A stretch of 64,000 nucleotides of DNA from contig CM049312.1 in NCBI GenBank assembly GCA_026874595.1, positions 23,429,956-23,493,955 of the forward strand, given 5' to 3'. The translations under genes were made by a program, and so were the position numbers. The DNA comes from Sipunculus nudus (Eukaryota > Annelida > Sipuncula > Golfingiida > Sipunculidae). The notes below the pieces were generated by a model. It was not told the origin of the DNA, made no database searches, and was given only the letters and a program-made list of their open reading frames with translations. This document shows, piece after piece, positions 1-53,400 of the stretch (position 1 is its first letter; every line of letters begins with the position of its first letter).

Positions 1-279
1 CTTCTCGTTTGTGGGACCTCCTGAAAATTATCTGCTGTTTTATCAAATGCCAATTCTCAATAATATATAGATAGATAAATAAAAAGGAAGTATGGATAAT
101 TAGTTAACGCTTTTTATTTCAAAATAAAATATATAAATTCACCTATTATGCCTATAATGCTGTTATATTTAAGTATTTAAACTCGAATCACGGGAAGCCC
201 TCGATTACCATTCCATTCAATGCATAAGGTTTTAATATACATTGCTGCTCTCAGTTGTTTTGTTTTATATTTTTGTAGT
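1..279. other. AT-rich intergenic DNA
   Basis: No exon, RNA gene or repeat structure can be supported here. It lies just outside the left end of the duplicated block that starts near 280. A short open frame starting at 220 begins with a hydrophobic stretch resembling a signal peptide, but it runs into duplicated DNA where the second copy (near 9285) does not keep the frame, so I do not call it a gene. Confidence 0.4.
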
Positions 280-945
280 TATACACCACCGAAGACCGTT
301 TGCTTGAATAAGCATGAACCAGAAGAAATCTTTAACTCAGACCTTATATTTAAAGCAAGCATACAGATATGCGTGTCACAATATCGGGGTTACATGCCCG
401 GATCCTCCACAGAGCATGATCACTAATAGATCTCATTCCACGGACATGTTCTACATATCTATATTAAATTTTCATAAAATTTATCATCACATTCTCTTTA
501 TAAACAGACTTAGACCCAATAATACAGAATCCAGAGAAATAAATTATTATTACATTTTGAAATAAACATTATTCACCCTAAGAGAATCTTTCTTGAACAC
601 ATATAGTATTTAAAGTACAAACATTTAATTAAATTAAAAAACCTTATGTCGGATTAATCAGATAAAGAAAAACTTCAAAACATTATTTTTTATTGATATT
701 TTCTTGCCCGCGGGTTTAAGACAAAATCGTATTAGTAAGAAAAAGATTTTGTTATTTTATAATCTGACAAGTAAAAGTGTTCTAACGAAGTAGATTACAT
801 TTTTATACAGGTCATATGTGGAGATACAAAGATGATCACCTGACCCTTGATGTAAAGATTAAATAATATAATTGTATAATTCATGACCTGCCTTTTCTTC
901 CACTCTTTGTTCTTCATAACATTAAGTTAACCTTTTTACACTGTA
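280..945. repeat. Left copy of diverged segmental duplication, downstream flank
   Basis: This stretch aligns, with gaps, to 9285-9880. Matching islands include the 'accgaagacc-tttgct' block, the 'agagcatgatyactaatagatc' block, the 'cacggacatgtt-tacatat' block and the 'cataacattargttaac' block, all in the same order. It is the 3' flank (minus-strand sense) of the receptor-like gene copies. Homology stops near 945, where the right copy continues into its tail exon and the left copy continues into unrelated sequence. Confidence 0.7.
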
Positions 946-2859: not shown

Positions 2860-3100
2860 CGTCTACATAGAATCACCAATGCTACAACAGCAGCAGTAAT
2901 TACTGTCAGCACAGGCACAAGCGTGGCGATGATAATAACGCTCCTTTTGTCCAGTACACTTTCCGGCATAGTTCTTGGTCCACTTGCGCTATTTGTGTCA
3001 CCGTTACCAGGCATAAGGGTAACATCATGCTTAACAGGAGTTGTAATCATTCTTAATTCATCTTTGTAGCACTTTACACTAACATACTTTTCACTGGTTG
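2860..3100 (-). pseudogene. Receptor-like paralogue A, stalk and transmembrane exon (intact exon of a decayed gene)
   Basis: On the minus strand an acceptor (tttcag) precedes base 3100 and a donor (gtatgt) follows base 2860. The exon is 241 bases, phase 1 at entry and phase 2 at exit, with no internal stop. It encodes a short cysteine-containing strand (Val-Ser-Val-Lys-Cys-Tyr), a Ser/Thr/Pro/Gly-rich stalk of about 40 residues, one hydrophobic segment of about 24 residues rich in Ile/Val/Ala, and a Cys-Arg-Arg stop-transfer. Layout and intron phases match the exon at 10486-10702, so the two are paralogues. The preceding exon at 3306-3622 is disrupted, so I annotate the copy as a pseudogene. 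It could still be transcribed, or act through alternative exons. Confidence 0.6.
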
Positions 3101-3305
3101 CTGAAATGAATATTATTCATTAAATATGAAACAAAACTGTTCAGAAACAATAACGTTCGAAACGAAAAAAAAAATCTACTTGTGTTTTTACGGCATAGTT
3201 AAATGATATACACAAAGCAGCAGTCGTTTCAGTACAGTATATTTGTGTGAAATATTTATTTCATTAAACATGTTCTTATATATCTTCATGATAAAACATA
3301 CTTAC

Positions 3306-3622
3306 CGTTCAAAAGAATATATATAGCCTGTTGGTCTGACAATATCAGACCATCTTCTGTGCTATTTAAGAGTTCCCTTTCCACTTAGAAATAGATGTTC
3401 CTCTTTATATACTTTGTATACCGCTATCCTTCAACATCTTTTGTAAATACCGAGGATAATGCTTTCATCACAGATTTTGTGTGTTATCGGGAAGATAATG
3501 ATACATGTGCATGTGCTCGCCTTAATCCAGCACTCTGTACATCACATAAACAATGCGATGCTGGTGACATGTTCTCTCTTTCCTTTATGACAGTTTCCTC
3601 CTTAGCGTTGACGTATCCAGAG
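3306..3622 (-). pseudogene. Receptor-like paralogue A, disrupted ectodomain exon
   Basis: Read on the minus strand this aligns to the ectodomain exon at 11815-12138. Shared islands include Gly-Tyr-Val-Asn-Ala, Val-Ile-Lys-Glu, Cys-x-Cys-(Asp/Glu)-Val-Gln-x-Ala-Gly-Leu, and Ile-Cys-Asp-Glu. The frame is broken. An in-frame TAA follows the sequence matching the 'ARILYV' part, the Ile-Cys-Asp-Glu block is in another frame and is followed by TGA, and a further length change precedes the 3' end. The donor (gtaag after base 3306) is kept. The acceptor AG used by the other copy is not present at the matching place. These changes point to loss of function after duplication. Confidence 0.65.
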
Positions 3623-4147: not shown

Positions 4148-5305
4148 CATACTTGGCTTATTTCAGCATAAACCTTCCGGGAATTAGTTACATATATCGT
4201 TTCACGTCTGTATCACAAGCGTTATGGCAATTTGACTCACTATACGCCTGGTTTCTCCATTCCGTAGACGGCTCTATTAAACTTTCATGGATGCGTGTAA
4301 AATTATGGTCGTGAATGTAGGTTGTTTTTTTTTAACATAAGGTGGTAAAACCAAATATGTTTTTTTTTTAAACTGGAAGAATGAACCCCTCTTTATTTTT
4401 ATCTCACCTTCAAAAGGTATACCAATAACCAGGTATACCAGAAGATGAAGATTCATATTGAACGCCCAGACACCAATTCCTCCCGTCATTTTGTGTATCC
4501 GCAAACGGAATAGTGGGTGCAGTGCATATATTTGTTACGCTTAGTTCAGCTCGTCCTGGTCACTGAGCGACAATGGAGCTTGCCATGTACGCTCATCGAT
4601 AAAGAGATGCATTCACGTTTAATGCAGTGAACCGTGGATACTTTTAATATAGACTTTTAATTAGATGTGAAAATGTACATATACCTGTGCGATAACACAC
4701 CTTGAATATAGTATATAAAGAGAGAGAAAGAAAATTCTCAGAATAACTTGATTTCCAGTCTTTAAATGAACATGACAGATTTATGCTAATAACGACTGAA
4801 TTATCCAAGACAAGGGCTAACAAACTCTGCTTCGTGTGTTTTTTTTTTATTCCAGACAACAAGCACCATGTATGTGTTAACAAGGATGAATTGTGCACGA
4901 TGCACACAGAAGGTTTACTGGACAAGAGGATCTAGAAGTAGTGCAGCTCGTATCTCTATGACAGGCTCTGTTAGCAGGCAAAGTAATACACAGCTTCTGC
5001 TTTCTCTAAATGGTTAGCTCTCATATGGTCCTATGTGTATGATATGACGTATCTGGAATGTTCCAGGGCTTTTTTCCAGGCCCACGGAGAGTTATACCAA
5101 ATATCAACGCTCCGCACTATTTACCCGTAATAAATTATCATCATGTCTCTCTCTCTTTGTCTGTCTGTCTGTCTGTCTCCTGCAAGTTTTTACAACACTC
5201 CTGGGAAAATGTTTGATACCCTAATCGGTTATGACTACTCAAGGATTGACGGACAAGTCGTATTTGCCCAAATCTAACGAGTTAACCTGAATGCACCAGA
5301 AGTCT

Positions 5306-6160
5306 GAGTGCTCGCGTAAATCGGCAGTGTTAGTGTTGTTTACCTTGGGTACAAATGATACACGTGCTCGCGTTAATCGGCAGTGTTGAGGTGTTGTTGC
5401 AGTGCGCACAAATGATACATGTGCTCGCGTAAATTGGCAGTGTTAAAGTGTTGTTTACCGTTTGTACAAATGATACATGTGCTCGCGTAAATCGGCAATG
5501 TTAAAGTGTTGTTTACCGTGGGTACAAATGATACACGTGCTCGCGTAAATCAGCAGTGTTGAGGTGTTGTTGCAGTGCGCACAAATGATACATGTGCTCA
5601 CGTAAACCGGCAGTGTTAAAGTTTGGTTGCAGTGCGCACAAGTGATGCATGTGCTCGCGTAAATCGGCAGTATTAAAGTGTTATTTGCCTTGAACACAAA
5701 TGATATATGTGCTCGCGTAAATCGGCAGTGTTAAAGTGTTGTTTGCTGTGCGCACAAATGATACACGTGCTCGCGTAATTCGGCAGTGTTAAAGTGTTGT
5801 TGCCGTGCGCACAACGGATACATGTGCTCGCGTAAATCGGCAGTTTTAGAGTGTGGTTGCAGTGCGTACAATGATACATGTGCTCGCGTAAACCGGCAGT
5901 GTTAAAGTGTTGTTGCAATGCGCACAAATGATACATGTGCTTGCGTAAATCGGCAGTGTTAAAGTGTGGTTGCAGTGCGTACAAATGATACATGTGCTCG
6001 CGTAAATCGGCAGTGTTAAAGTGTTGTTTGCTGTGCGCACAAATGATACATATGCTTGCGTAAAACGGCGGTGTTAAAGTGTTGTTTGCTGTGCGCATAA
6101 ATGATAAATGTGCTTGCGTAAATCGGCAGTGTTAAAGTGTTGTTTGCCGTGCGCACCAGC
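5306..6160. repeat. Minisatellite, about 15 units of 55-60 bp
   Basis: A unit with the core 'gtgctcgcgtaaatcggcag' followed by 'tgttaaagtgttgttt' and 'gtgcgcacaaatgatacat' repeats about 15 times with unit lengths of about 55-60 bp and substitutions. The array stays open in more than one minus-strand frame (for example 5673-6098), giving repeated peptides such as STCIICAH. The frame drifts from unit to unit and there is no start context, no splice signal and no domain, so I take the open frames as a by-product of the repeat. It sits between the two receptor-like copies. Confidence 0.9.
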
Positions 6161-8490: not shown

Positions 8491-9284
8491 ACTGGACTAT
8501 GTTTACGACCATTACCCTTACAAATCTGTTAAGGATATCTAATCTGCATATTCAAGTAAAATTTACTCGGCCGTAGAAAATAAAAAAGATTAACCAAAAT
8601 TACATACGATTAAATTATATTTTATAATGCCCTTAGAGAGCACATATCCCCAGTTAAGTTATAATAGTAAAGCAAAACAAGCAAGCGGATTCTCGTCTAA
8701 TAACTGACCGTGATAAATATTTAAATCATATTTATGGTGTTTTCTACATATTAAACGATTGTAGGTAACGATATCGTGTTTTAAAGTAAAGCTTGCTGCA
8801 CCCCCCCCCCCCCTTTGAAATCCAGAACCAAAATATGAGAAAATAAAAAGTGTTGTCATATATTAGACAAGTACATCCACCCCAATTTTTCATGTTTCAT
8901 GTTTATTAAAAACATCTTAACAGCCTTTCATAAGATAGTTCTTAGTTAGTGCATGAGGTAATGAATCGGTACTTTCTAACACTCCTCAGTCGTTTACAGT
9001 ATGGCATGTTTTTATATGTGTATCCGTTCATGAAGGTGCACAGAAGCATCAAGCTTTCCTCGTAATTAATGAATGATAACCCCTATTATTGATAAACCCT
9101 ACTCGTAGAGTGTACATAAAATCATTAACTAAAGTTTATTCATGACATGAGGTCTGGCAAACACTGTAAAAGGAAGATGGTCAACCCCTCCCCCCCCCCC
9201 TTCCCCGACCACCTTAAATCAACCCCCATAGCGATGATCAATTTATCCTAAGAAAATCGGATTTTACTGAGTGTTATTACACAC
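8491..9284. other. Intergenic DNA with poly-C runs
   Basis: Nothing coding is seen. Poly-C runs occur near 8802-8813 and 9188-9200. The open frame at 8659-8859 on the minus strand crosses a homopolymer run and is not convincing. Confidence 0.4.
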
Positions 9285-9880
9285 TACCGAAGACCATTTG
9301 CTAGAAAAAGCAAACAAAATGTTCAACCTTATATCAAATGCATGTACATCAACATTATGTGTCAAAATATCGAGGTTACATGCACGGAATCACCACAGAG
9401 CATGATTACTAATAGATCCCTGTATCACGGACATGTTGTACATATTTATGTTTAAAGCTCTTGAAATCAATCACCCAATCTCTTGATAGACACACTCGAA
9501 TACACTGACACAGAATCCAGAGAAAAAAAAATATCCATTTTTACATTGGAAATATATATTTTTACACACCAATCTACAAGAAAAAAAGTTTCCGGAATAC
9601 ATAAACGTATTTTATGCAGGAAAATTTAAATGACGTAATAGCTTAATCCGAATTCATCAGATCAGCAGACATTCAACCACATAATTATTAACATTTAATT
9701 ATTAACATTTGCTTTCCCCTGCTTTTAAAACAAAATCATTTTATCAAGAATTTTGGCTTGTAAAAGTGTCCAAAAGAAGACTCTTAGAATTCCATATGTA
9801 TATACCCGTATATAATTTATTACCTGCTTTTTTTCCACTTTAATCATAACATTAGGTTAACTTATTGTCTGCTCTATTTT
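9285..9880. repeat. Right copy of diverged segmental duplication, downstream flank
   Basis: Aligns in order to 280-945 (see that entry) and leads directly into the tail exon of receptor-like paralogue B at 9926-10112. The offset between copies is about 9.0 kb near the left end and about 8.5 kb at the ectodomain exons, so insertions or deletions have occurred since duplication. Confidence 0.7.
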
Positions 9881-9925: not shown

Positions 9926-10112
9926 CTACTGCCTGCTACTTCGGAGTACCTCATACTCATTTCTTGCATTATCAGCCACCTCCATGTGTTCATAATGTGT
10001 ACCTGTTGGCTCTGTTGTATTTTCCATAATTCCAGGACGTCTGGGGGATGTTGTAGCTGCTCTTGTTTCAGGATGTGCGTTACTTCCCGGAGAGTTTATT
10101 GGTTTCTGGAAC
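9926..10112 (-). CDS. Receptor-like paralogue B, cytoplasmic tail exon with two tyrosine motifs (terminal coding exon)
   Basis: On the minus strand the acceptor 'ctatattag' precedes base 10112. The single base before the first full codon completes the AG left by the donor of the membrane exon to give Arg. The frame then runs 61 codons to a TAG at 9926-9928. The peptide is polar, rich in Thr/Pro/Asn/Arg, and ends with YEHMEVADNARNEYEVL plus a short Ser/Arg tail. YEHM fits the YxxM pattern bound by PI3-kinase SH2 domains, and YEVL fits the YxxL pattern of immune tyrosine motifs or endocytic signals. The two are spaced somewhat wider than a classical ITAM. The exact frame match across the intron and the stop near the end make this a convincing last exon. 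Signalling function is inferred from motifs only. Confidence 0.7.
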
Positions 10113-10485
10113 CTAATATAGAGAAAATATGGTTAATATAAGGTATTACAAGGTGATCATGAGACATCTCATACCGGGGAACAACGACAAGGTTTTTAGT
10201 TATTATCCCTCTAACTTTATATTAACTTTTGCCGTCATCGGGACCAGAGTGACTTTTTAATGCAAAGTCCCCCATCAGATGTTAGCCCTATCTGCAGTGT
10301 CATGCATCGATATAGATATACAAACAGAGAAAAGGATCACCTTATTGCCCCCGTATAATCAGTTCTGATTTAATCAATCTCATTACGATTTTTGATTAAA
10401 TAGATAATTAACTCACAATTCATTGCTGATGTAGCCTATAATCGTATAATTATTTTTATATGTTTTATAAAATCTAATATTGTAC
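10113..10485 (-). other. Intron between membrane and tail exons of paralogue B
   Basis: A 373-bp intron on the minus strand. The donor is 'gtacaa' and the acceptor 'ctatattag'. It splits an Arg codon (phase 2). Confidence 0.65.
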
Positions 10486-10702
10486 CTTTGTTTGCATAGG
10501 ACCAGAGCAAGAATGATGACAAGAGCAAAAACTGTCATTACAAGTACCACGACAGCTATAGTCAGAATGGTAATTTGATCCTGTTCTCCCGGTGACTCCG
10601 TCCTTATGTTACCTTCTGTCGTCGGATCAGCAGCAGTAACGGTATTAACTTCGTTCAATGTATCACCATAACAGCGAACAGAAAAAAAATTATCTGAAGA
10701 TG
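10486..10702 (-). CDS. Receptor-like paralogue B, stalk and transmembrane exon
   Basis: On the minus strand the acceptor 'acattttcag' precedes base 10702 and the donor 'gtacaa' follows base 10486. The exon is 217 bases (2 + 71 codons + 2). It encodes Phe-Ser-Val-Arg-Cys-Tyr-Gly near its start, probably the last strand of the ectodomain. An acidic, Thr-rich stalk of about 35 residues follows, then one hydrophobic segment of about 27 residues (Leu/Ile/Val/Ala) and a basic Cys-Lys-Gln-Arg stop-transfer. This is a type I single-pass layout with the N side outside. Intron phases (1 in, 2 out) match the paralogue at 2860-3100. I do not recognise a named family. Confidence 0.7.
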
Positions 10703-11691
10703 CTGAAAATGTAAACGTCATAGGTCATATTCTGGGATTATATTTATGATTATGCCTAATGGATCTTTGCTTGGTATAATTTTGTCTAAAAGAATAAACG
10801 ACGGGCAAATACGTGGCGCTACTATTCCAATAATGTGACCTGGATAGGAATTAAAGCTTTCCACACAGCCATTAATACCATTTCCTTTAAAAGAAAAGGC
10901 AGGCGTCAGATAAAGTAATGTGTATTTTACAATTAGGAGTCAACAGTCGACTGAAACTGTAATAATGCAAGGCACTGGAAAGTTAAAATAATGGGTGAAC
11001 ATTGGAACATTTGAACCGTAGGATCTTCAGATTTAACAAAGTTTATATAAACTCGCAAGTTTGTGGTACATGGCAAACAATGCGAAATAAAATTTAATAT
11101 TGCAGGCACGATACACAGATATTTTTGGTTGGATATCGTCCTACGTAGTACATTTGACCCATTTTGCAAAATGCTAAGATATTTCCCTTTTCAGTTTATT
11201 CTTTTTTTTTTGAACATGTGTCATTTTATAGGAAGAAGTCGATACCTGTTCAACTTGAATTGTTTATAACCCATTACTCTCATTCTATCGTTTCTTTTTT
11301 TCTCTTTTTTTATAATTATATCAGAGATATATTGTGAAACCTTGTACTAATTTTTATTCAATATACTCAATTCAGTATTGCAGATCGTATTAACATACCG
11401 ACCATTAATGGCATTATCCATTCGAATAAGTTTTTTTTTTTTAGTTTTATGAGCCGTTCTTCTGATACTGTTTTATATTCTTCTGTTTTATACAACATAT
11501 GCATGTCATGGCTCTCTTTTGGGGCCATAACCTGAACCCTGTCTCACATGTTTACTCGAACATGTATAAAACATGTATGAACGTTCTCAATGGTACAATT
11601 CATATCACAATTGATTTGTGTTTCCGGGAAGGCAGTTGATAGCCTTACTCAAAGCATCCTAGCAGTCTGTACCTGACATGCACAAGTCGCA

Positions 11692-11762
<71 letters not shown>

Positions 11763-11814
11763 TTACTTCGTGACACATTTTCTTTCATACCGACATGATA
11801 CAACCTATACTTAC
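10703..11814 (-). other. Intron of paralogue B
   Basis: A 1.1-kb phase-1 intron on the minus strand, donor 'gtaagt' and acceptor 'acattttcag'. It contains the (AT)n array at 11693-11755 and poly-T tracts and no recognisable exon. Confidence 0.6.
11693..11755. repeat. (AT)n microsatellite
   Basis: A pure array of about 31 AT units lying in the intron just downstream (minus sense) of the ectodomain exon of paralogue B. Read through in frame it adds alternating Ile/Tyr residues to the open frame, which is an artefact. Confidence 0.95.
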
Positions 11815-12138
11815 TGGTTAGAGAAATTTCTATATAGCCCGTTTGTCTGACAATGTTGGATCTTTTTCTGTAATATTTAAGAGATCCTGTTTCTGTTTCA
11901 CTGTAGAAATGATATAACCCATCACCATTGCTACGTAATTCGTAATATGAACATCTGACGTAGAGACCGATGGTAATGCCTTCATCACATATGTTCTGTG
12001 TTTTTGAGAAGACATATAATATACGTGCTTGGATCAGTCCAGCATTCTGTACCTCACACGTACAATTCGCAGCCAGTGACGCGGTCTCTATTTCCTTTAT
12101 GACTCTCACGTCTGTAGCGTTGACGTATCCATGGCTCT
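11815..12138 (-). CDS. Receptor-like paralogue B, ectodomain exon
   Basis: On the minus strand this exon ends at a strong donor (gtaagt after base 11815). It most likely starts after 'ctccaag' at base 12138; an alternative acceptor four bases further in gives a start at 12134. It has no internal stop over about 107 codons. The donor leaves one base, and with the first two bases of the exon at 10702 this forms a Thr codon, giving a continuous protein. The peptide contains Asn-Ala-Thr and Asn-Cys-Thr N-glycosylation sites, a Cys-Thr-Cys pair, single Cys in 'NICDE' and 'YVRC', and alternating hydrophobic residues typical of a beta-sandwich. I cannot assign it to Ig, CUB or another named domain by eye. 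The exon(s) with the start codon and signal peptide, expected at higher coordinates, were not found. Confidence 0.65.
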
Positions 12139-14346
12139 CTTGGAGTACAGAAGTGAAGAATTTTCTCACCTTCAAGAAAGGAGCTTCCCATAAATGATAG
12201 CAATTAATAATGTGAAATAAGGTATGATATATTGATTGTCTAGCGCATGTGTTCCAGCTTGTTTTTGAGCACTTAGTCTACCACTAATTACTCTTTATAT
12301 ACTTTTCAGTCATATTTGTATGTTGAACACTTGGACATAACGTTATGAAGTCTTATAGAACGTATACTGGTTCCCTACGCAAGGAAGGGTATGTACTCTT
12401 TCCAGTTCCCATACGTGTGTGTTAGTGTGTGTTTGTTCACAACTTAAATAACGCATTCATGAACCAATCCCATGACATTTTCAGTAAGTGGACCAATGTT
12501 GAATCGATTTGATTTTGGTGTGGGTCCGCCTCATGATCCAGATCCAGGAAGGACTTTCATGAATATTCACAAATGTGCAGTCATATATAAAGGATTGAAC
12601 AAGGGAATAACAGGCCAGTAGAATTAATTAAAACAGGTAAAAAGATGCACAATGCATTTTCATAAGGTATGTAGTTTGACATACTGAAAGTCTACCAAAA
12701 TCGACCGATCTGAAATATGAAGATTTATTGGTTTCTTATATCCATTGTCGCAATTGTTAAAAATATAAGATTTTTACATAAGTGACATTTGTTACGGAAC
12801 ATAATATCAACAGATCACGTAAGCGTGATGAACATAAATTTTGTAATGGAAGAAAATCAGATTCTGTAACACTAGGCAACGTGAAATGTCTTGGGGAATG
12901 AATAAAGAAGTCAGTGGCTTTTTGTTAACAAATAACCATAATTTATTCTTAAAACAACCCTAACATTACAATACACTAAATAAATACAACGACACAGTAT
13001 AACAGCAGTATAACAGCAAATCAATACAACCACACAGTGAAAAAAAAACAAAGTGCACAGTACCTGGATACCACCACTGTCACAGCGACAAATCCTTTAA
13101 AATGTATTCTCTCGGAGAATAACAGTCCAATGTAAAGCTCATGTAACAATCCCGAAAGTAAACTGAAGATCAAATAAGATTCGTCACAAATCCAGAAGAA
13201 AATCTGAAGAAAATCTATAATTGCCGCACCTATCGGAATAGGTCCCACAAACTGATAACACGCTTCTATGTCCGCTGGAATATTCTCTCACCTCTCTCCC
13301 GGCTCTAAAACACAGCCTCTTTATATAACTTTTCACCTCAAGCCGAGAATTTTCCATTTCTCGAACAATCTAAAGAATATAACACAGTACATACGTTCAA
13401 AGAGCATAATAGAACAAAGAACGTTGTGTATCTAGGGTTCCACCAATGCGGATTAAACCGAGCCTACAACATCCAGCCAGGCGAGGCCGCTACAACACGA
13501 GCTACGCGTGGCACACAAACAAAATGCCAACAACACATGGAACATCCATGTGCACAATAAAACAATCATCTGTAAGACCGCTGCACACAATAAAAGGGGC
13601 ACCTGTAACACATTACAAATCCTCATTTTAGTTACACCAGTTCGTAAACACGGTACTAAGGTTTGCAAAACTAATGGTATGATAAAATTGATACTAAAAA
13701 GTGTCAAATGAAATGTATTTCATATAAAAAATATGATTTAAGTGATTTTATTCTTAAAATATTGCATATATATAAAGTCACTTTTCCGACGTCTTTCTCA
13801 GTCCTTACATCCATGCACATATTGTTGTATGCTATACTGAGATACATAGTTTATGATTTGCCCTCTCTCTCTTGCCAATCTTATAATACCTGCTATGGCC
13901 AGTGATGTAGTCATCAGCATATACAGGTAAATCAGTTGACGGAAATCTGTTGTGATCAAAGAAACCCCATATCCTGCGGCAAACATGTTGTCTTGGTTGA
14001 ATATGTGTGTGGTTGAAGGTGAATGTGAAGATACCTTGTGACTATCATTACTTCCTCATCTACACTTGTGTCTTTAAAGCAGCTAAATTTAGATTGTCAT
14101 GATTATATTTTGCTCAACAGGCTCATACATGTTAAACGCAGTGGACCATGGCGATTTTTTAAGCGTGTATCCACTCATTAACAAAGTATACTATTATTAG
14201 CCCATCACACCGTCACAACACTTTCTAAAAAACATGAACCATGTTGGACAATGATTGATGAACCGTCAGTCAACTGCGACGGTGTTAGGTTCTATTTTAC
14301 AATATAAACAAATCTACGCCGAAAACATGATATTTATATATATATA
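12139..14346. other. Non-coding DNA upstream of paralogue B
   Basis: The 5' exon and promoter of the minus-strand receptor-like gene should lie here or beyond. The one suggestive spot is a minus-strand 'tataaagagg' near 13320, followed 200-250 bp downstream by an open stretch without ATG (about 13274-13062) that ends at a possible donor ('tatccag|gtactg') near 13062. The phase would fit the alternative acceptor at 12134, but without a start codon I do not call an exon. No other exon is supported. Confidence 0.3.
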
Positions 14347-14743: not shown

Positions 14744-16435
14744 TACCGTATTTGACGTTAATAAGCGCCCCGAGCGCTCTCATAATTTAATTTGACCTTA
14801 CAACTTGCGCGATAGCCCATCATTCCCCTTGGCTCAAACAACTGTATACATGAGGCTCGATAAGAGCCGATATTACCTAGATAAAGCTCTGTTGATACAG
14901 TCAACCGAAAGGACCAAGAGACAATTCATATACTAACATTTCGGAGGAACTAGGCAGTCGGGCGTCAGCTGTAATTGCTGAAAAACAAACACGGTTTCCA
15001 CGTGTCTAAAGAACCAAACGTTTATGTAGACTGGAACTTTTGTTCATAACGATCGACGTAATTTTTATTCAATTGAATCCGGCCAAACTGTCATATTTTA
15101 AAGTAAAACTCGGCAAAAATGGGTGAACTCGCGTGAAATATACGACGCAGTGTTCCTCGAAATTAATGCAGCTGGCAAGAACGCTGATAAGTCCGTGGGA
15201 GAACACTGACATTCCCTTCCATGGACGGTACAGATCGTTTAGATATAATTAGGACGGAAAGCGGCGATGTAAATAGAAAATATGGTTTGGACGATTCCAT
15301 CGTATAAATGTGGTGATGCATGTTCTAGGCTAAGATTTGTCATGGGAGCAGGACATTGAATTACATTGACGTCATGGAAACTTGTTGCACGGAATAGAGA
15401 GCAAGCTCCCTCAAACGACAATAACTGGAAAACACGCCTTATCATGCCAATACACATTAATTATGTTTACAAATCGTTTAAGGGTGTTAATTTTATCAGT
15501 TTTAGAGAAGAAATGCTGTTCACTCGACTTAATTCTTCCTTAACTCACTGTATTATTACCCATTTGTCGACTGACGGCTATCACCATTCGTGTAACCTTC
15601 TGACCATGCAAGCATATAATAAAGTGGTAGGGCCTTTTCACACCTTAGCCCTCTTCGGCCTAAAAGTGCGTGTGTATCTAAATATGTGTAAATTTTATCA
15701 TTGCAAGTTTTCAGTGAATCGCTTGGCGGGCTATAACAATCAGTTATCAGTCAGATCGCTTTATTCACGATATACGGCTATGATCTGACCTTTTTTTTTA
15801 TTATTTAATGGTAAACTCCCGCGTTGTTAGAAATGCGTGTGTTTGTTGTCAAAATATCCATTCAAATGAGGCAGCTCGTTGTGAGACCCTGGCCAAAAGG
15901 AAAAAGGCTTGCCGAGATAAAGGAAAGTAGAAGGATCGAGATCTGAGAAGTCTATTTTGAGTTATAAAATTAGACGTTAACAGTTTCAGATACCGTGGCA
16001 AGTATAATTTTCTATCCAAACTTTTAAAGTATTCATGGAAGGAAAATGATGTATTATTTACACCCTTGTGCCTTTTTTATAGAACATTCAGGTCGCGCAA
16101 GTTTATTTTGCTGGACGTATTTTGCTCCTCGAAAAATGAAAGCTTTTTCCAAGATTGAAGTAGCTTAGTCACTTCAGTCTTGACCGAGATTAGGTTAAGA
16201 TATGACTTTTAAGAGGATTATTGGGGAAACTTGAAGGTGCTAAATTGAAGAAATTCCATTTCACAAGCCAATATTTATGGGCTTGGGATAATTTCACGCC
16301 CTAAAAATCATCAAGCGAGGTAGGGAAAATAACTGTTCCTGCCATCGCTTTTTATGTGAAAATCGCTCATTCCTTCCGTTTTCTTAAGAAGAGCCCTAAA
16401 AAACCCATTGGCCGCTTATTACGCCAATTACGGTA
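14744..16435. mobile_element. Inverted-repeat DNA transposon remnant, about 1.7 kb
   Basis: The left end reads TACCGTATTTGACGTTAATA followed by 'agcgccc'. The right end in reverse complement reads TACCGTAATTGGCGTAATAA followed by 'gcggcc'. These form imperfect terminal inverted repeats of about 26 bp, with TA at the outer edge of both ends that may be the target duplication. The interior is somewhat richer in GC than its flanks and has one moderately long open frame (15366-15788, plus). That frame has no transposase motif I can recognise, so the element is probably non-autonomous or decayed. I cannot place it in a superfamily. Confidence 0.65.
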
Positions 16436-25429: not shown

Positions 25430-28400
25430 TGAGATCCAGAAGGCTTAATAATAACATATCATTTTAATCCTTTGGTTACTTACATCCTCATTCAATGATG
25501 GGTGCCACTATCAGACCAGGGACCATGTCCTTGCAAAAACGTTCTTCTTTTGTGGGAAACTTGACCTCGCTTTTGACGAGGCAACTTTTCAGACAATATG
25601 AAATATATTATTGAATGTCCTCTCATGAAATATTATCCGTTCCTGTGACTACTTTCTGGTCTCACAGGAAGCTCTCCTGTCTTTCTGTCTTCAATTCTTG
25701 AAATATTAATAACAATTAATTAATAATAACATTATCAATGTTATTCATATTTTTCCACTTGGGTATAGTAAAAGCCAAACTATAAACCCTGAACAGTCCC
25801 TGTTAAAATAATTGTATTTATCGCGGTATCTTGTAGCAGGAAATATTGTGTCATTTGATTATTTAAATAATGTTATACCCATAGGTTATGTGGAGTGTAA
25901 ATATATTATCCTCTATAACAAAATATTGTTCCAGATACACAGCGATCATGAAAACATAATAAGTTGTTGTTTATGTAGCATCGGTAAGTGGCAACGTGCT
26001 ATATAAAGTTGATGGACAGCTTCATCTCTGGGTGCATTAGTGGAGGTATAATAGTCGGGCAGTAAAAAAAAGCGCAGATTGCAGTCCCAAGAAAAAAATC
26101 AATGGTTTTGAAATATGAGTTTGATCCGAGCTTGTCATTAGGAGTTTGATCCGAGCTTGTCATTAGATGATTGGTATCCTATTTAACGCAGATAAAAATG
26201 TTTGTCTCGTCCACAAGACTTTCGCGTGAATGACTTATTATTACCTGAACACAGCTCATTAATCCGTACACATATCTTAATTATATCGTGCGCACTGATA
26301 CACTCGTGCGTATGAATGATTAATCCGTGCACATAACTTACTTTCTTGTTGTGCATTCGTAAGACTGTCTGTTAAACTCCACTTCTGGCGAACTCATTAT
26401 AGTTAGTGATCAAGGCATATTATTATCATTTTTTACATTATATATTATCGATTATAATATTATTTATGAAATAAATTATTCTGAAAAGGTTTTTTTCCGG
26501 GAGTGAAGTAGAGTATGCACTGATGGTTACACTGTAGTACAATTAACAAAAACAAATTATTAACCAGCTTACTTTAAATTGAATAGGTGTTTTGTAATAT
26601 GCTTCGCCAAACAGGTGCTTTTAGGTAACGTGTAGCCAACCGACTTGTATCTGAGTCCAAGCAAGAAATATAATTGAGCTTTCTTTTTAAAGTAAATCTA
26701 TTTTTTTTTCCAAACCAGCCTCAACTTAATGACAGAAAGTCGCCGGATGCTATTGCTGAGTTTTCATCAACTTCCTTCGCAGGTTCTTGGCACTGATCAG
26801 ATGGATCCAGCCTGGTAACACATTATTTACTTTCATGAAGTGGTGTCCCGGCTATAACGAAGACCATCAATAATCCTCTCAGTCTATCAGTTGTCTGGGA
26901 GGCGTGCGTCATTTAATCACCAACTACGCCGCTCCACGCGCGTATTCTTTTGATTATATATTGCTAAAACTTAATAAAAATTACAATCGTGACCAAATCG
27001 GCGTTTCGATAAAATGAAAGCAACGAAGAAAATACCAGTTCGACGAATTTTCTAGAAAACGGCATTTTTATAACATTTCATTGTAAATTCGTCGATATTG
27101 AAAAAAGGCAAACATTCGGCCAATACCCGGAGGCGATTCTAACATTTTTCTCCGGGGATGCTGCCTTAAAAGAATAACAAGTAACAAGTGATTAATTTGC
27201 TTGCTGTTTAATACCTATTATGTCGTGTGTAATTCATAATATTTTTTACAACTAAATGGCTATTTTACAGGTCATGATATTACATACATGCATTTAACAT
27301 GAAACTCTTTACTTCGCGTATTTACATTCACCTGTGAATTCCACTGAATATTCCCATGTAACGGGTTTCCACCTACGAGATCAAGGTTTTCCTGTTTTTA
27401 TTAACATTGCCTTCTGGAGGACTGGACAGCTAATTAACAATCTAATTTACCCGTCAGACTGTACCCTCGGTTATAAAGTTACCTTCAAGACCTGTCAGAC
27501 AAAGATCAAAGTCCCACGCCCTTTATTTTAACACAGACATTGGCGTCGTTTGCACAATGACTGTAATATTTTTACATAAATATATTGTACAAATTCAACA
27601 AAGCTGATATCAAGACATTTACATGCAGAAGAGATACAAAGATTGAATGGATAAAAATTAAATGGTATAGGCGCCATTAACTTAGCCGTATAAGAAAAAG
27701 AAAAAGTACCAATAATTCATCTTTTCGGTACTCTGATATTCCTTAAACAGGACATAAAAACTGTCAGAGATGCTGCAACATGGGACAAGAAATTTATTAT
27801 TTCTAATATAGTTAGATATAGTTAGGCAATTGACAGTCTTTTGATTTTTACTTCAGTTCTGAAGACCCACATACTTGGTTAAGTTAATACTTAATCATTT
27901 TAACGGTAAGTACCATAAAACCTAAAATTTCAAATAATTATTTAAAAGTAATGAAAGAAATTCACGTTTCTGTTTTACCTATATATATTTTAAAAGTTAC
28001 AGAAGGGCACCAAAACATTAATGCTAGCTCATAGAATTGTCATTCTACATATAATTAGTGGGGATGGCACTCTTCTTATATCGGAAGTTTAACCTCAATC
28101 TTATCGTGTAGGAGCAGGTATATGGCCCAGTCTTTGGTCATCATTCAGAGGTCTTCTAAAAACAAATTTACTGAATTCCGAAAGGAGAAAAAAACGCTTA
28201 TAAGAACGTTAGGTAATTGGCTGTAACTGCTATCCTGGCTGAGTATTTTATACCCCTTGATGGTTTCTTCTTTGGAGATATTTATTCTGGTCTAATTAGT
28301 GACACACAGGAAAGTAAGACATGTTGATATTTATGTTGGTTTAATAGGGCAACACGGAGGTAGTAAATGGTACGGTTACCACGTGCAGCTGGCCCTGTCA

Positions 28401-29504
28401 TGGAGGTTCTAATCACGGTGAACAATATAGCTGAGGTACTTAGTGTAAAATGTACAACCATCGGCTGTGTTAAATTATTCATACATTTCGTCCTACAGTA
28501 TATATTACAGTAATCAGAAAGGCCAGTGTGACAATTAGATCAGATAGATTAGACCAAAGTCATAATAAACTCAGGATGTTCTTTTAAGGTTTAGAAGAAG
28601 TTCGGTCATGTGAAAATAATGACTTAACATAGGCAAAGAATCACAGCACCATTTAAGGAACTCATCAGACAAAGCTATCTGTAGGCATGCCTACAGGTAA
28701 GCCTATTAACATAACACATAACAGTCAAACATATATCAACAGAATATATAAAGAAAAAAAAACCTCACAATTTATTATTTCCATAGGTATAAATTTGTCT
28801 ATATTTATCCTGAGATCAATTTATCTGTAAAATATCTTCTGAGTTAATAAAAGAATTGAAAAATCGGAAAGGCTAAAAGATAAAAAAAGTCCTTTGACAG
28901 AAACAGTCCTAAAAATTAATGTAAATATGTCTGTCCAGAAAAAAAGTCTACATTAACCCCCCCCCCCCCAAAGGACTAGAAATCTGTAACCTAAGGAATG
29001 CAACCCTCCGCATGGGAATATTCCCAAAAACGGAATTTACTCTCCCTTAATCTGTCCAAAACCCCAGGATCATCCGTGCCAACTGACTGTTCATTTGTAA
29101 TTATTCGTTGATGACGTTACCGAAACGGGATAATGTACCGAATACCCACCGAAATCTAATCGATTCTTCGCTGACTCATTCCCGAAATCATGAAAATTCC
29201 GTTCATGATTGCAGGAGGTATTGTGTGAGCAAAAATACACACAAACACACTCATGAACGGGGTTTTACGCAAACCCTCCTGGCGGAGGCAAAATGTGATC
29301 AACATTATATAACATATATTGTCTGATAAAGTACAAGCGTTTAGCAACCATACAATATCTGACCAAAACCGCGTTCAACATACGTCATCTCTGAACAAAA
29401 GAAAACTTCCAAGAAATTATATCAAGTAATCCTAACTTAACGGTCACGTAAATCCATTACCACTGATAAAAATTGGTGCACCCGGTCGGAAGTTTATCTA
29501 TCCG
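25430..29504. other. Intergenic AT-rich DNA
   Basis: No exon supported. It contains a perfect 25-bp duplication (26117-26166), a 16-bp perfect palindrome 'tgtaggcatgcctaca' (28680-28695), and a poly-C run near 28959. Open frames at 25812-26006, 27334-27531, 28282-28482 and 29108-29326 have no recognisable domain. Confidence 0.4.
26117..26166. repeat. Perfect 25-bp tandem duplication
   Basis: The unit 'gagtttgatccgagcttgtc' plus 'attag' occurs twice head to tail with no mismatch. Confidence 0.9.
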
Positions 29505-42244: not shown

Positions 42245-42316
42245 CGCCTACTGGTGGTGATAGGATGAATTCCAGTGTTTACCTCAGGACGGGTCCGTTC
42301 ACTCATCAGAGTTGTG

Positions 42317-42690
42317 ATGGCTGCCAAGCCGAGCGGACCGGCTCTCCTTACGCGATGGTGTAAACTGTCGTCTGCTGGCGGGGGCGCGCAATTAGAGAAT
42401 AACAACTACCTGGTCAGTGAACACGTGCGACCGAGCCGCCAGGAGAGGTTCGATCCATGGATTAACAGACTTTCTGCTTATATTTTTGTCTCTACTTTAG
42501 CGGCTTTATGTTATTTTAACAGTCTACATGGCCAGCTCGTACATGATGACGTTTTTGCCATTAAGAATAATCCTGACGTCAGACAAGAGACGTCACTTGT
42601 CAAATTGTTTCGTCACGATTTCTGGGGCCGTGAGCTGACGGACAATACCAGTCACAAATCGTACAGACCTTTAACGGTCTTAACGTTCAG
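42317..42690 (+). CDS. TMTC1: TMTC1-like protein, first coding exon
   Basis: Encodes the N-terminus of a transmembrane O-mannosyltransferase with TPR repeats (TMTC family, ER membrane, acting on cadherin domains). The start ATG has G at -3 and +4. The frame is closed by TGA at 42266-42268, so this is the first in-frame Met. Residues 1-52 form a polar cytosolic segment and about 53-71 the first membrane helix. 'GQLVHDDVFAIKNNPDV' follows, in which Asp77-Asp78 is the conserved diacidic motif of the first luminal loop of GT-C glycosyltransferases. Then come 'HDFWG' and 'NTSHKSYRPLTVLTF', a hallmark of the family. The 'NSLHG', 'HDDV' and 'NNPDV' wording is closest to TMTC1 rather than TMTC2-4 as I remember them. 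The exon ends with the first two bases of an Arg codon at a consensus donor (gtaagc). Confidence 0.93.
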
Positions 42691-43494
42691 GTAAGCAGAA
42701 CCGTTAAATATCGGCTAGTTCTAATTTTTTTTACTGGGATAATAAAACTGAATAATTTAACAAAGCCCTAATGTTGGTGTGTGTGTGATATTTTGTGTGT
42801 AAAGCTCGAAATTTTTCATTGTATGTACTCGAAGAACAGTGCCAAATTAAAGTAGCTAGAAGCCCTGGGCCAGCAGACATGCAGGGCCAAATCTATAAGG
42901 ATTTGATACAGGGAAAGGAAACCTCGTTTTCTTATTTTCTCGTTTTTGAAAAGTCAAGAATTGATGAAATGATTGCGACTGTATTTGCCGTAAATCCAAT
43001 GGTGTACGTGTTTAATGTTACGTAGCAACTGAGCTTGACAGCAATTCAAGAACTGATGCGTTCAATGCTGAAATCAGTGCGTTTCTAAATTGTTTTGGGT
43101 TTCACTGTAACAAATAAAATCTATGGAAACATGCATTTAAAGAAGCATATAGTAAACATCTGTTAAGTAGAGATATTGTCACGAAACAGTTATAAAGAAT
43201 AAACAAGAAAATGTCGAACCTGCGGTACACATTGTGTTCCTTTTGTGTATATCCACTAATCATAAAGTGTGGACCCGCCAAAATAATCCAAATACATTTG
43301 ACAAGGGTATCTGGCGGCAAGTCAGACGAACCGGAGTCTTGCAAATGTCGTTTTGCATATATATTTTTTTATTTTTATTTGTCAACATTGGCGCAGGTAC
43401 CGTGTTTACTAACAGCGTATAGATAAACAAGTTCATATATCCGTCACAGAGACGTTATAAAAACCTTCCTTGACAGGAAATACCTATAGTCAGT

Positions 43495-46942: not shown

Positions 46943-49900
46943 GATTAACTTAACATAAAGAAGTATTGGTTAGCGCTTATTTCATGCAGGGCAGTTGGTA
47001 ACAATAAATTGGATGTATGTCTGTAGATAATAGTTCTCATTGTCTTTCTTATGTTATAAGTAGATAACATAAGATAAATGGAGATGTTGATGTAAGAGTG
47101 GCAAGTTCTTCTGCTTAGTCGATGTCACGTGGTACACTCCTGCTTTCAGCTTACTAGGCATACTAAGAGTTACTCCTGCACATTATGTAGTCTATCACAG
47201 TTTCATCTTCCACAATGGATATATAATCAGAAAAAAATAATCATTAATGACAAATTTGTGTTATTTGGAGAGGCCCGACGGTTAGGTGTTTTCTGTCCCT
47301 TCCCGTTCCTGCGATATCAATATTGATTCACTATCTACCCCGCCTTGAACAAGTATAAACAAACTTTCCTTTGTTAATCGTGTCTCATTAGGCTCCTAGA
47401 TAAAACATAATTCCCGGTGATTACAACGGGGATTTCAGGTTCTTTATATTTCTGCCCTTTGACTTATAATCTGCGACCGTTAATAGAACTCTCAATGTCA
47501 CAATAAAGAAAATGTTTATTACTGTTCTAAAGTAATCGTGCCCGAACCGAAAGGGGTATTGGGATCTTCAAGGTCAACTGGTAGTTCAGCAAGTGAGGCT
47601 TTTCTCAGATAAGTATATCTAAAAAGGCGACATCTTATTAAAACCGGACGCATTATATTCTTTAGTTGTGATTCCGTTCATACATGTGAAGCACTTTATT
47701 TAATCTAAATCTAGCAATTGAAAACGCATACGCGTACGATTCGATGAGTAATTTCACATTTTGACGTAAAGTACGGGGCATTCCGCTGGCAGATAATCCT
47801 CAAACATCACACGGAATTGAATCTTAGCTTTAGGTTTAAAAGATTGAGACAAATGTCAAAAACCTCTCCTATGATGAACTTAAGTTTATGCTTGTCTTTC
47901 ATAAACCAAATATATTTTGAAATAACATTAAAGCTCTCCGTAGGTAATTATATCATTTTAAACCTGGTAATTCCACAGTCTTCATACCGTATACATGAGC
48001 TAACGTGCAGCTTCGTCGGCGTCTGTTTTAATACCTGAGTTGTCTAATGGTCTGTTTTTCAGAGTAATGTGGAGGATAAAGGATGAACTTTAATACGTAT
48101 CATGACTTTAAAAAATCAATAAATATATTTCTTAAAATGTTTAAGTATCGCTGACGACATCATAAATAAAAAATATATTATAATTAAAACAATCAAATCT
48201 TTAATATTATTTATAAATAACAAACAGGAATTTTCTTTTTATGTTTTTTTAGATCCTTGTTGAATTGTCAAATTGTTATTTTTTTGTGCCTTTTAAATAA
48301 TTGATATGATAATGTATATACTTTGTGTCGGTTACTATATGGTGAATTCGCGAAAATGGAAACCGTGCGAAACATTGTAAACATGAAATCGCGAAAATGT
48401 AACCCTGTAAATATGAATCCTGCCTCAGTCGTTTATGTCTTGTATGAATAAACTGATATGTTATAACAGACGTTAAAGGCCGCGCACGTTTTAAAAGACC
48501 AGTAGTCCAGGTTTGGTTACAACCAGCTACAACCTAGCTACGTAAGGGGTCTTTTACGTTTCAAAGTGCCATACATAAAGTACCCTATACGTTAGGAAAG
48601 CCTCGGGTTTCATTAGCTGTACAAGACATTCATTCGCTGCTGTATTGGTCCGTAACAAAAATCCTTTCCAAATCCTGAAATTGTTCGTAGCCAGGACCTG
48701 ACGACACCGTCAGACAAATCGAATTAGACTCGTACCACGTCTGAACAACAGGACATTGTTGTCAGTCTCGGACTGAATAATGTCGCCATGACCGGACTCA
48801 ATGGTCCCTATACATGTCTGCAGCATACCACGCCGGAAGTATTGATTATATAAAAAACTTCCGGTGTAAAATATTAAAGCACTTCTTTTTTTTTAATTTT
48901 GTTCAACATACAGGCATTCAAATACATATACATACACGTACACATACACATATACATATATGCATATGTATGTACCATATCTCTGCCCTGTTCTTATTAT
49001 TCGTCTTTATATATAAAATCGACAAACCAAATGCCGTACATGCACGCGTAATTTAAGGCATTTGTTGTCATACCACCTAATAATATTCAGTACGTATAAG
49101 CTCCTGTCAACCATCTGTCCATTTTTACGATAGGCTTGCCAGTTAAATCGAAACTAATGCAGTCTTCATGTTAGCAATTAATCAGGCATGGTTGTTATCG
49201 AATAGCGGATCATTTCATTTTTTACAGCTTTGCCTTAATACGTATATTTTATGTAATTATGTATTTTGAGTTGTCATGTAGGTCTTTTAGTATAATCTCA
49301 TAAATGAAAAACTGGGGCTAACGCCAGAAGATAATCGTGTTGGGCTAAAATCTGGTTGAAGTTGTTCTTTTAACATGGCTCTCGTCAGGATTATACTGTA
49401 TAAAGTATTTCATCACATCAACACGTTAGGCTTAACGTGTAAAGTTTGCTGTGGTACACTGTCCTTCATCACCCCAGCTCGTAGCCCGCGTAGACGTGAT
49501 CTTTATCTCGTTAATACACATCTTGTAGCCCGCGTAGACGTGACTTTATTCAAGTTAATACGCACCTTGAAGCCCGTGTACACGTGCCTTTAATCACGCT
49601 AAAATAGACCTTGCAGCCAGCAAACATGTGTCTCTTATCACGCTAATACATCCCTTGCAGCCCATGTACACGTGTCTTTTATCAGGCTAACACGCACATC
49701 GCCGTCCGCGTACACGTGCCTTTTATCAAGCTCATACACCCCGTGCAGCCAGCGTACACACGCCTTCCATCGAGCTTTTACAAACCTTGCAGCCTGCGTA
49801 CATATGCCTTTTATCACGCTAATACGCACCTTGCAACCCGCGTACACATGCCTTTTATCACGCATACACACAACTTGCAGGCCGCGAACACGTCTTTTAT

Positions 49901-50452
49901 CACAGGAATACGGACCTTGTAGTCTGCTTTTAAATACCTTTCTTCACGCTGATACACACCTTGTAGCCCGTGTAGACGTGATTTTAATCACGTTAATACA
50001 CACCTTGCAGCCCGCGTATACATACTTTTTATCACGCTTATACGCACGTACCTTGCAGCCCGCGTATACATGCTTTTCATCACGTTGTTTCACCCCTTAC
50101 AGCCGGCGTACACATGCTTTTCGTCACGTTTATACACACCTTTCAGCTCACGTACACACGCCTTTCATCAAGCTTTTACAAACCTTGCAGCCTGCGTACA
50201 TATGCCTTTCATCACGGTGATACACACCTTGCAGCCCGCGTACACATGCCTTTCAGCACGCTGAGACGCACCTTGCAGCCCGCGTATACATACCTTTCAT
50301 TACGCTAATAAACACCTTGCACCCCGCGTAATCATACCTTCCATCACGCTGATTCACACCTTGTAGCCAGTACACCTTTTCTATCACGTCGTTACACACC
50401 TTACAGCCCACATACTGCTGCCTTTCATCACGCTGAGACGCACCATGCTGTT
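46765..50452. repeat. First copy of a 3.7-kb tandem duplication (2.7-kb unique part plus 44-bp array)
   Basis: The sequence from 'tgcgtctgcgtaaggtttca' (46769) through to about 49465 is repeated at 50461-53048 with high similarity and the same order of landmarks. These include 'aaaacgcatacgcgtacga', 'aattcgcgaaaatggaaacc', 'accatctgtccatttttacg' and 'ggctaacgccagaagataa'. The copy ends in a minisatellite (49466-50452). It lies entirely in intron 1. No protein of recognisable type is encoded in the 2.7-kb part. Confidence 0.9.
49466..50452. repeat. 44-bp minisatellite, first array, about 22 units
   Basis: The unit is close to 'cacgctaatacgcaccttgc' followed by 'agcccgcgtacacatgcctt' and 'tcat'. 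Because 44 is not a multiple of three, the frame rotates with each unit. All three plus frames happen to stay open over long stretches, giving up to 182 codons at 49672-50220 with repeats such as FITLIRTLQPAYTC. I treat these as non-genic. Confidence 0.92.
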
Positions 50453-53400
50453 CTGGCCTTTGCGTCTACGTAAGGTTTCACGAAAACGCAGCATAATATT
50501 GTGTACACATGAGACTATGTGAGCATTACGTGTGCGATTTCATCGCAACATATGTCAGTATTGTTCAGCGTTCATCAGAGTCTCGCAAACAGAACGCAGA
50601 CGCATTGCAACTGTCTGTAGATCCGGCTTTAGATGATTAACTTAATGTAAATTAGGATTGGTTAGCGCTCATCTTTCGCAGGGCAGTTGGATATCTGCCG
50701 TAGATAATAGTTCTCATTGGCTTACATATATTATAAGTAGATAACATAAGATAAATAGAGATGTTAATTTAAGAGTCATGTGGTACATTCCGTTCTGTTT
50801 TCAGCTTACTAGGCATACTAAGAGTTACTCCTGCATATTAAGTAGTCTATCAATGGATATATAATCAGAAAAAAAAAGAATCATGAATGACAAATTTGTG
50901 TTATTTTGAGAGTTCCGACGGTAAGTTGAGTTGCTCTCCCTTCCCGTTCCTGTGATATCAATATTGATTCACTATCTCTCCCGCCTTGAACAAGTGCAAA
51001 CAAACTTTCCTTTGCAAATTGTGTCTCATTAGGCTCTCAGATAAAACATAATTCCTGGTGATTACAACGAGGATCCAGGTCCGTTATTTTCCTGCTTTTT
51101 GGCTTGTAAATTGCGACCGTTAATAAAACTCAACCGAAAGGGTAGTTATAGGGATCTTTAAGGTCAACTGGTAGTTCAGCAAGTGAAGCTTTTCTCAGAT
51201 AAGTCTATTTATAGAGGCGACATCTTATTAAAACCGGACGCATTATATTTTTAGGTGTGAAACCATTCATGCATGTGAAGCATTTTTTAATCTAAAACTA
51301 GCAATTGAAAACGCATACGCGTACGAATCGATGAGTAATTTCACATTTTGACGTAAAGTACGGGGCATTCCGCTGGCAGATAATCCTCAAACATCACACG
51401 GAATTGAATCCTAGCTTTAGGTTTAAAAGATTGAGATAAATGTCAAAAACCTCTCCTATGATGAACTTAAGTTTATGCTTGTCTTTCATAAACCACATAT
51501 ATTTTGAAATAACATTAAAGCTCTCCGTAGGTAATTATATCATTTTAAACCTGGTAATTCCACAGTCTTCATACCGTATACATGAGCTAACGTGCAGCTT
51601 CGTCGGCGTCTGTTTTAATACCTGAGTTGTATATTGGTCTTTTTTTAAGAGTAAAACGGTGGATAAAGAATGAACTTTAATACTTATCATGACTTTGAAA
51701 AATCAATAAATATATTTCTTAAAATGTTTAAGTATCGCTGACGACATAATAAATAAAAAATATATAATAATTAAAACAATCAAATCTTTAATATTATTTA
51801 TAAATAACAAACAGGAATTTTCTTTTTTATGTTTTTTAGATCCTTGTTGAATTTCCATATTGTTATTGTTTTTTTTTTGTGTCTTTTAAGTAATTGATAT
51901 GATAATGTATATACTTTGTGTCGGTTACTATATGGTGAATTCGCGAAAATGGAAACCGTGCGAAACATTGTAAACATGAAATCGCGAAAATGTAACCCTG
52001 TAAATATGAATCCTGCCTCAGTCGTTTATGTCTTGTATGAATAAACTGATATGTTATAACAGACGTAAAAAGCCGCGCACGTTTTAAAAGACCAGTAGTC
52101 CAGGTTTGGTTACAACTAGCTACAACCTAACTGCGTAAGGGGTCTTTTACGTTTCAAACTGCCATATATAAAGTACCCTACGCTAGGAAAGCCTCGGCTT
52201 TCATTAGCTGTACAAGACATTCATTCACTGTTGTATTGGTTCGTAACAAAAATCCTTTCCAAATCCTGAAATTGGTCGTAGCCAGGACCTGACGACACCG
52301 TCAGACAAATCGAATTAGACTCGTACCACGTCTGAACAACAGGACGTTGTTGTCAGTCTCGGACTGAATAATGTCGCCATGACCGGACTCAATGGTCCCT
52401 ATACATGTCTGCAGCATACCACGCCGGAAGTATTGATTATATAAAAAACTTCCGGTGTAAAATATTACAAAGCACTTCTTTTTTTTAATTTTGTTCAACA
52501 TACAGGCATACAAATACATATACATACACATACACATATACATATATGCATATTTATGTACATTATCTCTGCCCTGTTCTTTTTATTCGTCTTTATATAT
52601 AAAATCGACAAACCAAATGCCGTACATGCACGCGTAATTTAAGGCATTTGTTGTCATACCACCTAATGATATTCAGTACGTATCAGCTCCTGTCAACCAT
52701 CTGTCCATTTTTACGATAGGTTTGCCAGTTAAATCGAAACTAATGCAGTCTTCATGTTAGCAATTAATCAGCATGGTTGTTATCGTATAGCGGATTATTT
52801 CATTTTTTACAGCTTTGCCTTAATATGTATATTTTATGTTATTATGTATTATGAGTTGTCATGTAGGTCTTTTAGAATAATCTCACAAATGAAAAACTGG
52901 GGCTAACGCCAGAAGATAATCGTGATGGGCTAAAATCTGGTTGAAGTTGTTCTTTTAACATGGCTCTCGTCAGGATTATACTGTATAAAGTATTTCATCA
53001 CATCGGCTCGTTCGGCTTAACGTGTAGAGTTTGCTGTGGTATACTGTCCTTCATCAGCCCACTTCGCAGCCCGCGTAGACGTGAATTTTATCTCGTTAAT
53101 ACACATCTTGTAGCCCGCGTAGACGTGATTTTATTCAAGTTAATACGCACCTTGTAGCCTGCGTAGACGTGATTTACTCACGTTAATACACACCTTGAAG
53201 CCCGTGTACACGTGCCTTTAATCACGCTAAAATAGACCATGTGTCTCTTATCACGCTAATACATCCCTTGCAGCCCGTGTACACGTGTCTTTCTTCACGC
53301 TTATTCGCACCTTGCAGCGCGGGTACACGTGTCTCTTATCACGCTAATACATCCCTTGCAGCCCATGTACACGTGTCTTTTATCAAGCTCATACAACCCG

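Follow-up and report, generated by a model that had tools for sequence, protein, structure and literature searches.

Clusters of orphan single-pass membrane protein genes have been tied to parasite resistance in snails (PMC7494358). According to three reports, the Biomphalaria clusters PTC1 (GRC, grctm genes) and PTC2 are made of clustered genes for single-pass proteins whose ectodomains are mostly unrecognised; the PTC2 proteins have no known domains beyond the membrane segment, PTC2 carries whole-gene insertions and deletions with paralogues less than 50% alike, a gene of PTC1 is tandemly duplicated, and TMEM154 is named as a domain in several PTC1 genes (PMC7494358, PMC10875847, PMC5310918). 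The words "tyrosine" and "cytoplasmic" are absent from the main text of one of them (PMC7494358). In the oyster, the membrane receptor CgIgIT2 has five Ig domains and tail tyrosine motifs that are said to signal, in the form of a classic ITAM, in a review in which one of the cited titles calls it an inhibitory receptor (PMC11999971).

The window analysed here, a stretch of 64,000 nucleotides from Sipunculus nudus, holds a predicted receptor gene that can be compared with these systems and with the paired receptors of vertebrates. With a broken paralogue and a relic beside it, it may be likened, in kind only, to PTC1 and PTC2 as clusters of single-pass genes with divergent paralogues. As in PTC1, there is a TMEM154 match over the stalk and membrane helix, but it stays below the cut-off. 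In contrast to Grctm6, described as having extracellular and intracellular stretches of more than 200 residues each, the predicted protein has about 121 and 64; and some PTC1-type genes are reported to carry FN3, whereas none was detected here. With CgIgIT2, as the review portrays it, the protein shares the general character of an invertebrate membrane receptor with tail tyrosine motifs, but no Ig domain was detected and the tail departs from the strict ITAM. Vertebrate paired receptors have ITAM, ITIM or YxxM tails and combine a small ectodomain, one helix and two spaced tail tyrosines. All three of the latter features recur in the predicted protein; nevertheless, no matching ectodomain came up in the Pfam and PDB searches, and the tail fits neither the ITIM nor the strict ITAM.

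The gene consists of three minus-strand exons that join in frame, in phase 1 and then in phase 2, as confirmed in place by direct reading and by a scripted join. The first-pass annotation had given the same exons and phases; its junctions (11814/10703 and 10485/10113) were each one base off GT-AG, and the correction leaves the joined protein and the phases unchanged. The ectodomain exon lies between the acceptor CTCCAAG/AGAGCC and the donor CCA/GTAAGT (7.36 bits, in the top 1.6% of the GT sites of the window), and use of this acceptor gives it phase 1 at either end; an alternative AG two bases further on would make it start in phase 0. The exon with the stalk and transmembrane helix (TM exon) ends in phase 2 at the donor AAG/GTACAA, a mediocre site of 4.3 bits in the top 7.9% of GT sites. 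The support for the tail exon consists of its splice sites, its frame and its position before a 3′ block shared with the paralogue, and no second copy of it was found in the window. Two ATTAAA motifs also lie near the candidate polyadenylation signal.

Table 1. Features of the receptor gene and its relatives in the window. Exon limits of the intact-looking copy are GT-AG-corrected; a slash in a sequence marks an exon boundary.
Feature	Coordinates	Strand	Remarks
Ectodomain exon	11815..12138	-	107 whole codons; CxC...C...C; sequons NAT and NCT
Stalk and membrane helix exon (TM exon)	10486..10702	-	last ectodomain stretch FSVRCYG with fifth cysteine
Tail exon	9926..10112	-	YEHM and YEVL; end LRSSRQ; stop TAG at 9928-9926
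Candidate polyadenylation signal AATAAA	9816..9821	-	105 bases past the end of the stop codon; motif only
3′ block downstream of tail exon	9277..9750	-	common to paralogue 279-741; 3′ UTR or 3′ flank
Intronic ectodomain relic (intron that follows the ectodomain exon)	11604..11692	-	carries an in-frame stop
Paralogue signal-peptide exon	4408..4489	-	MTGGIGVWAFNMNLHLLVYLVIGIPFE/G; ends in phase 1; donor AAG/GTGAGA
Paralogue ectodomain exon	3306..3620	-	frameshift near 3514, and stops
Paralogue stalk/TM exon	about 2860..3100	-	open; starts in phase 1 and ends in phase 2, like the intact-looking copy
Paralogue 3′ block	279..741	-	blastn to 9277-9750: 68.9% over 492 columns, E 7e-41
Possible solo LTR, 799 bp	12746..13544	-	TGT...ACA, ATGGA on both sides; upstream of ectodomain exon
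Weak signal candidates (nested starts grouped)	13914-13986, 15300-15321, 18696, 19529, 21660, 26356, 26867-26912, 28461-28482		

The joined product, without its start, has 241 residues and one membrane helix, for which the best 19-residue Kyte-Doolittle mean is 3.42; 17 of 223 segments of that length exceed 1.6, and they form a single block. On the inner side the helix is followed by KQR. Cysteines occur at residues 25, 27, 50, 62, 118 and 177, of which the first five are outside and the sixth lies where the helix ends on the inner side, and the sequons NATD and NCTC lie outside at residues 6 and 24, with a third, NTTE, in the tail. The ectodomain is thus cysteine-containing and glycosylatable, as had been described; the "Thr/acid-rich" label given to the stalk is fair but mild (30 residues, with 9 S/T/P and 7 D/E). 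A single-pass, type I-like architecture is supported, with a convincing signal exon in the paralogue only. YEVL is present in the tail but is not its terminus, since RSSRQ stands between it and the stop codon. The five outer cysteines could form two disulfides and leave a fifth free, which could link two chains; the same five positions are found in both copies of the gene, which suggests that one cysteine is unpaired and may make the protein a covalent dimer.

Searches of Pfam, NCBIfam and the PDB gave no credible match for the ectodomain, which the first-pass annotation did not recognise either. The ectodomain exon alone matched 0 Pfam families at E values up to 10, and no Ig, C-type lectin, FN3, CUB or other Pfam ectodomain was detected. 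For the joined protein, TMEM154 (PF15102; residues 128-191, E 0.069, 13.4 bits against a gathering cut-off of 30.3) and CRIM1_C (E 0.14) were the only two weak Pfam matches, both below cut-off and both over the stalk/TM region. When four exon references of the window and the paralogue signal peptide were searched separately, the five proteins gave a single match, KIAA1549 on the TM exon alone (E 0.17, again below cut-off), and TMEM154 was not listed for either TM exon alone. Given this replacement of TMEM154 and CRIM1_C by another family, the weak names are likely compositional. RuvA in NCBIfam (E 0.041, 13.6 against 180 bits) was likewise set aside. The PDB was searched by single sequence and by two-sequence profile; SAKe6BE-L2 in the tail (E 0.019) and haptoglobin (E 0.77 and 0.64) had no stretch passing alone and were dismissed. 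A CUB-like jelly roll, which the cysteine pattern might suggest, was backed by no search. Viral contigs gave three pattern matches and no relative by tblastn, and Rfam gave 0 matches over the whole window at the gathering threshold; a bacterial-type promoter scan is not meaningful for this DNA. The eukaryote sequences compared were those of the PDB, of Pfam and of the window itself. Such a family is not named among the literature titles listed, and a nameless sequence is not findable by words.

On the same strand, at a distance of 8.5 kb, lies a second copy: a signal exon comes first, followed by the ectodomain and TM exons, ordered as in the gene, and by the 3′ block. Besides the gene itself, a tblastn search of the window with the joined protein recovered 3618-3514, 3535-3254 and a fragment at 11690-11589, and blastn paired 3238-3619 with 11745-12131, and 279-741 and 875-931 with 9277-9750 and 9811-9861. 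The ectodomain exon is 69.8% identical to 3619-3320 over 308 columns (E 3e-33), or 66% over ungapped columns in another alignment; the 3′ blocks are 72% identical over ungapped columns. The two TM exons share 27% protein identity (tblastn E 6e-8, with the paralogue protein as query). The signal exon of the second copy has a strong donor of 10.7 bits. Its ectodomain exon is without 10 bases that hold the acceptor in the other copy; a loss of the acceptor was considered and rejected, as an AG just before 3647 is in phase with the signal exon, so that splicing of the paralogue need not be lost, while the frameshift and stops stand. In the frame that matches the 3′ end of the other copy, the donor of this exon is reached in phase 2, not in phase 1. 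No tail exon was recognised by tblastn or blastn between 2860 and the 3′ block, and it is either lost or diverged beyond recognition. By its sequence, the second copy reads as a pseudogene.

A further ectodomain fragment lies within the intron of the gene itself, and is 69.7% identical to the ectodomain exon over 89 bp (E 1.6e-10; tblastn E 0.007). Three ectodomain copies, whole or partial, are therefore found within about 9 kb of the window, and about 12 kb hold the intact-looking copy, its broken counterpart and the relic. The suggestion that the receptor belongs to a family gains support from these neighbours; with a broken paralogue and a relic in its intron for company, the gene is taken to belong to a tandem family that is local and decaying.

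The differences that separate the two copies appear to favour synonymous changes weakly. On hand-chosen alignable codons, pS/pN is 0.295/0.203 for the ectodomain pieces, which were picked by hand, and 0.638/0.489 for the TM exon, and the synonymous excess has one-sided Fisher p values of 0.12 for the former, 0.036 for the latter and 0.028 for both combined. An excess of mismatches at third positions is absent (32/40/35 and 39/36/41 by codon position, counts for which one partner is broken and the TM exon alignment behind the second set is poor), and this speaks against strong constraint. At synonymous sites, divergence is greater in the TM exon than in the ectodomain pieces (0.64 against 0.30, p 0.0007), and when all sites are counted the TM exon also exceeds the 3′ block (p 9e-10); the divergence of the ectodomain exon is not significantly higher than that of the 3′ block (p 0.08). 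Such unevenness is as expected if exons were exchanged with a further member of the family, and, judging from this one pair, the TM exons of the two copies may differ in origin because of an exchange with another, unseen member.

The upstream part of the ectodomain ORF contains no Met in frame, so that a signal exon is needed. A signal exon upstream had been proposed as something to look for, and the search brought out a clear one in the paralogue and none convincing for the intact-looking copy. Between 12139 and 30000, where phases 1 and 0 were scanned, no exon comparable to 4489-4408 was found, only weak candidates. The region beyond 30000 was covered by a strict scan of the whole window, run on either strand and in every phase, for hydrophobic exons that begin with Met. 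With a donor score of more than 9 and a hydrophobicity of more than 2.3 required, it passed only 4489-4408, with two nested starts, and a phase-0 match at 59209 on the other strand. Four candidates of our own choosing were compared with the paralogue signal: the score of 26912 was reached by 3 of 500 composition shuffles, that of 13986 by 6, and those of the other two by 51 and 127 of 500, and we take none of the four as demonstrated. A hydrophobic open frame at 13626 on the minus strand, beginning MRICNVLQVPLLLCAAVL and adjoining the possible LTR, failed the signal-exon scan. The possible solo LTR is one of three pattern matches and ties with 12930-12211 on terminal match; no relative was found, and the solo LTR reading is weak. 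Lying at the expected place of the first intron, such an element could have displaced the signal exon.

The two tail tyrosines stand in the contexts GTHYEHMEV and RNEYEVLRS, laid out as YEHM-x9-YEVL. YxxM in a cytoplasmic tail is the docking rule for PI3K p85, and YEHM agrees with it. The ITAM rule is YxxL/I, 6-12 residues, YxxL/I; the spacing fits, but the first motif has M at +3. The ITIM rule is [S/I/V/L]xYxx[I/V/L], and the residue at -2 is T for YEHM and N for YEVL. Both motifs also fit YxxPhi, the endocytic signal read by AP-2 mu2. Among shuffled tails, 1.3% have a hydrophobic residue at +3 of both tyrosines and 0.45% combine YxxM with Yxx[LIV], both tests being post hoc. The first-pass annotation took the pair as the kind that couples receptors to SH2-domain proteins, which may hold for YEHM as a YxxM and does not extend to the ITIM or strict ITAM; three other points of its interpretation, namely the architecture, the unmatched ectodomain and the membership of a family, agree with our results, and its lineage-specific family is a conjecture.

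On balance, we think the gene probably encodes a ligand-binding receptor, an orphan type I single-pass member of a local tandem family. One alternative is an assembly of unrelated ORFs joined by chance, and ORF length is indeed weak evidence for a gene here. Counted from stop to stop, the TM exon frame has 103 codons; when the 8 kb around the gene were resampled 200 times with a first-order model, ORFs of that length or longer arose in 134 cases, and ORFs of at least 150 codons in 10. The ectodomain exon frame has 210 codons, including a stretch of TA repeats, against a resampling maximum of 202 (0 of 200 reach it), and its 169 codons before the repeat were matched by 3 of the 200; such ORF-length figures are inflated by the TA repeats of the region. 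The ranking of the second donor also suits a fortuitous join. For the ectodomain and TM exons, the second copy is a strong argument against it, because both recur there independently, in order and with similar protein sequences, and the 3′ block is found again; we consider a chance assembly very improbable. It is this copy that lifts the exon set above chance, and it is the best evidence for a gene. A more serious possibility, though one we still rate as less likely than not, is that the intact-looking copy is dead too, a 5′-truncated duplicate that lacks a signal exon and in which decay has yet to reach the open frames. The failure to find a convincing signal exon means that it may be so: nothing like 4489-4408 was detected upstream, a possible solo LTR sits where the first intron is expected, the neighbouring copy and the intronic fragment are both broken, and open frames as long as these are no great rarity in this region. 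Nevertheless, all three exons are open, in phase and flanked by usable splice sites, while the paralogue has meanwhile gained a frameshift and stops. If the copy is dead, the locus would be an ordinary case of receptor-family decay.

What, then, would a living receptor do? In our favoured reading of a ligand-binding family member, the intact-looking copy would be expressed from a signal exon lying further upstream or missed, the family would turn over by duplication, decay and perhaps exon exchange, and the ectodomain would bind a ligand. On clustering, a Src-family-like kinase might phosphorylate the tyrosines of YEHM and YEVL, and the phosphorylated tail could then recruit SH2 proteins, PI3K p85 at YEHM being the most specific guess. 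From the motifs, SH2 signalling by the predicted receptor is a tentative proposal that we would not call probable. The same receptor of the same family might instead use its tail for endocytosis or sorting, and so for uptake or recycling, which changes the last step only. A hydrophobic +3 residue at both sites and the departure from the strict ITAM and ITIM consensus sequences are consistent with such a tail; yet Src-type kinases and SH2 domains also favour the acidic residue that both sites have at +1, and YxxPhi and YxxM/L are indistinguishable by sequence. An endocytic tail is hence also a minority expectation, about as likely as phosphotyrosine signalling. An explicit YxxM/YxxL tail beside broken copies would make the locus a tractable place to ask about phosphotyrosine signalling. 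It is tempting to go further and to imagine a new, fast-evolving invertebrate receptor family, distinguished by its own ectodomain, whose long-tailed members (YxxM and YxxL) arise alongside others that lack the tail exon and whose copies trade exons, as an independent counterpart of the vertebrate paired receptors; this we regard as a long shot.

Several other features of the window were recorded. A repeat family at 5297-6144 has a 57-base spacing and keeps overlapping open frames; the units listed for it are one of 113 bases in at least 7 copies and one of 275 bases in at least 4. On the plus strand, exon-like frames occur at 42269-42691 and 59119-59454, which may be the N-terminal part of a TMTC-type membrane protein; neither has a Pfam match above cut-off, and the second is without a PDB match. 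Finally, an array of a 44-base unit at 49405-54099 forms two blocks inside an apparent direct duplication of about 3.6 kb, whose copies begin at about 46758 and 50449 and whose listed pieces are 90-98% identical.
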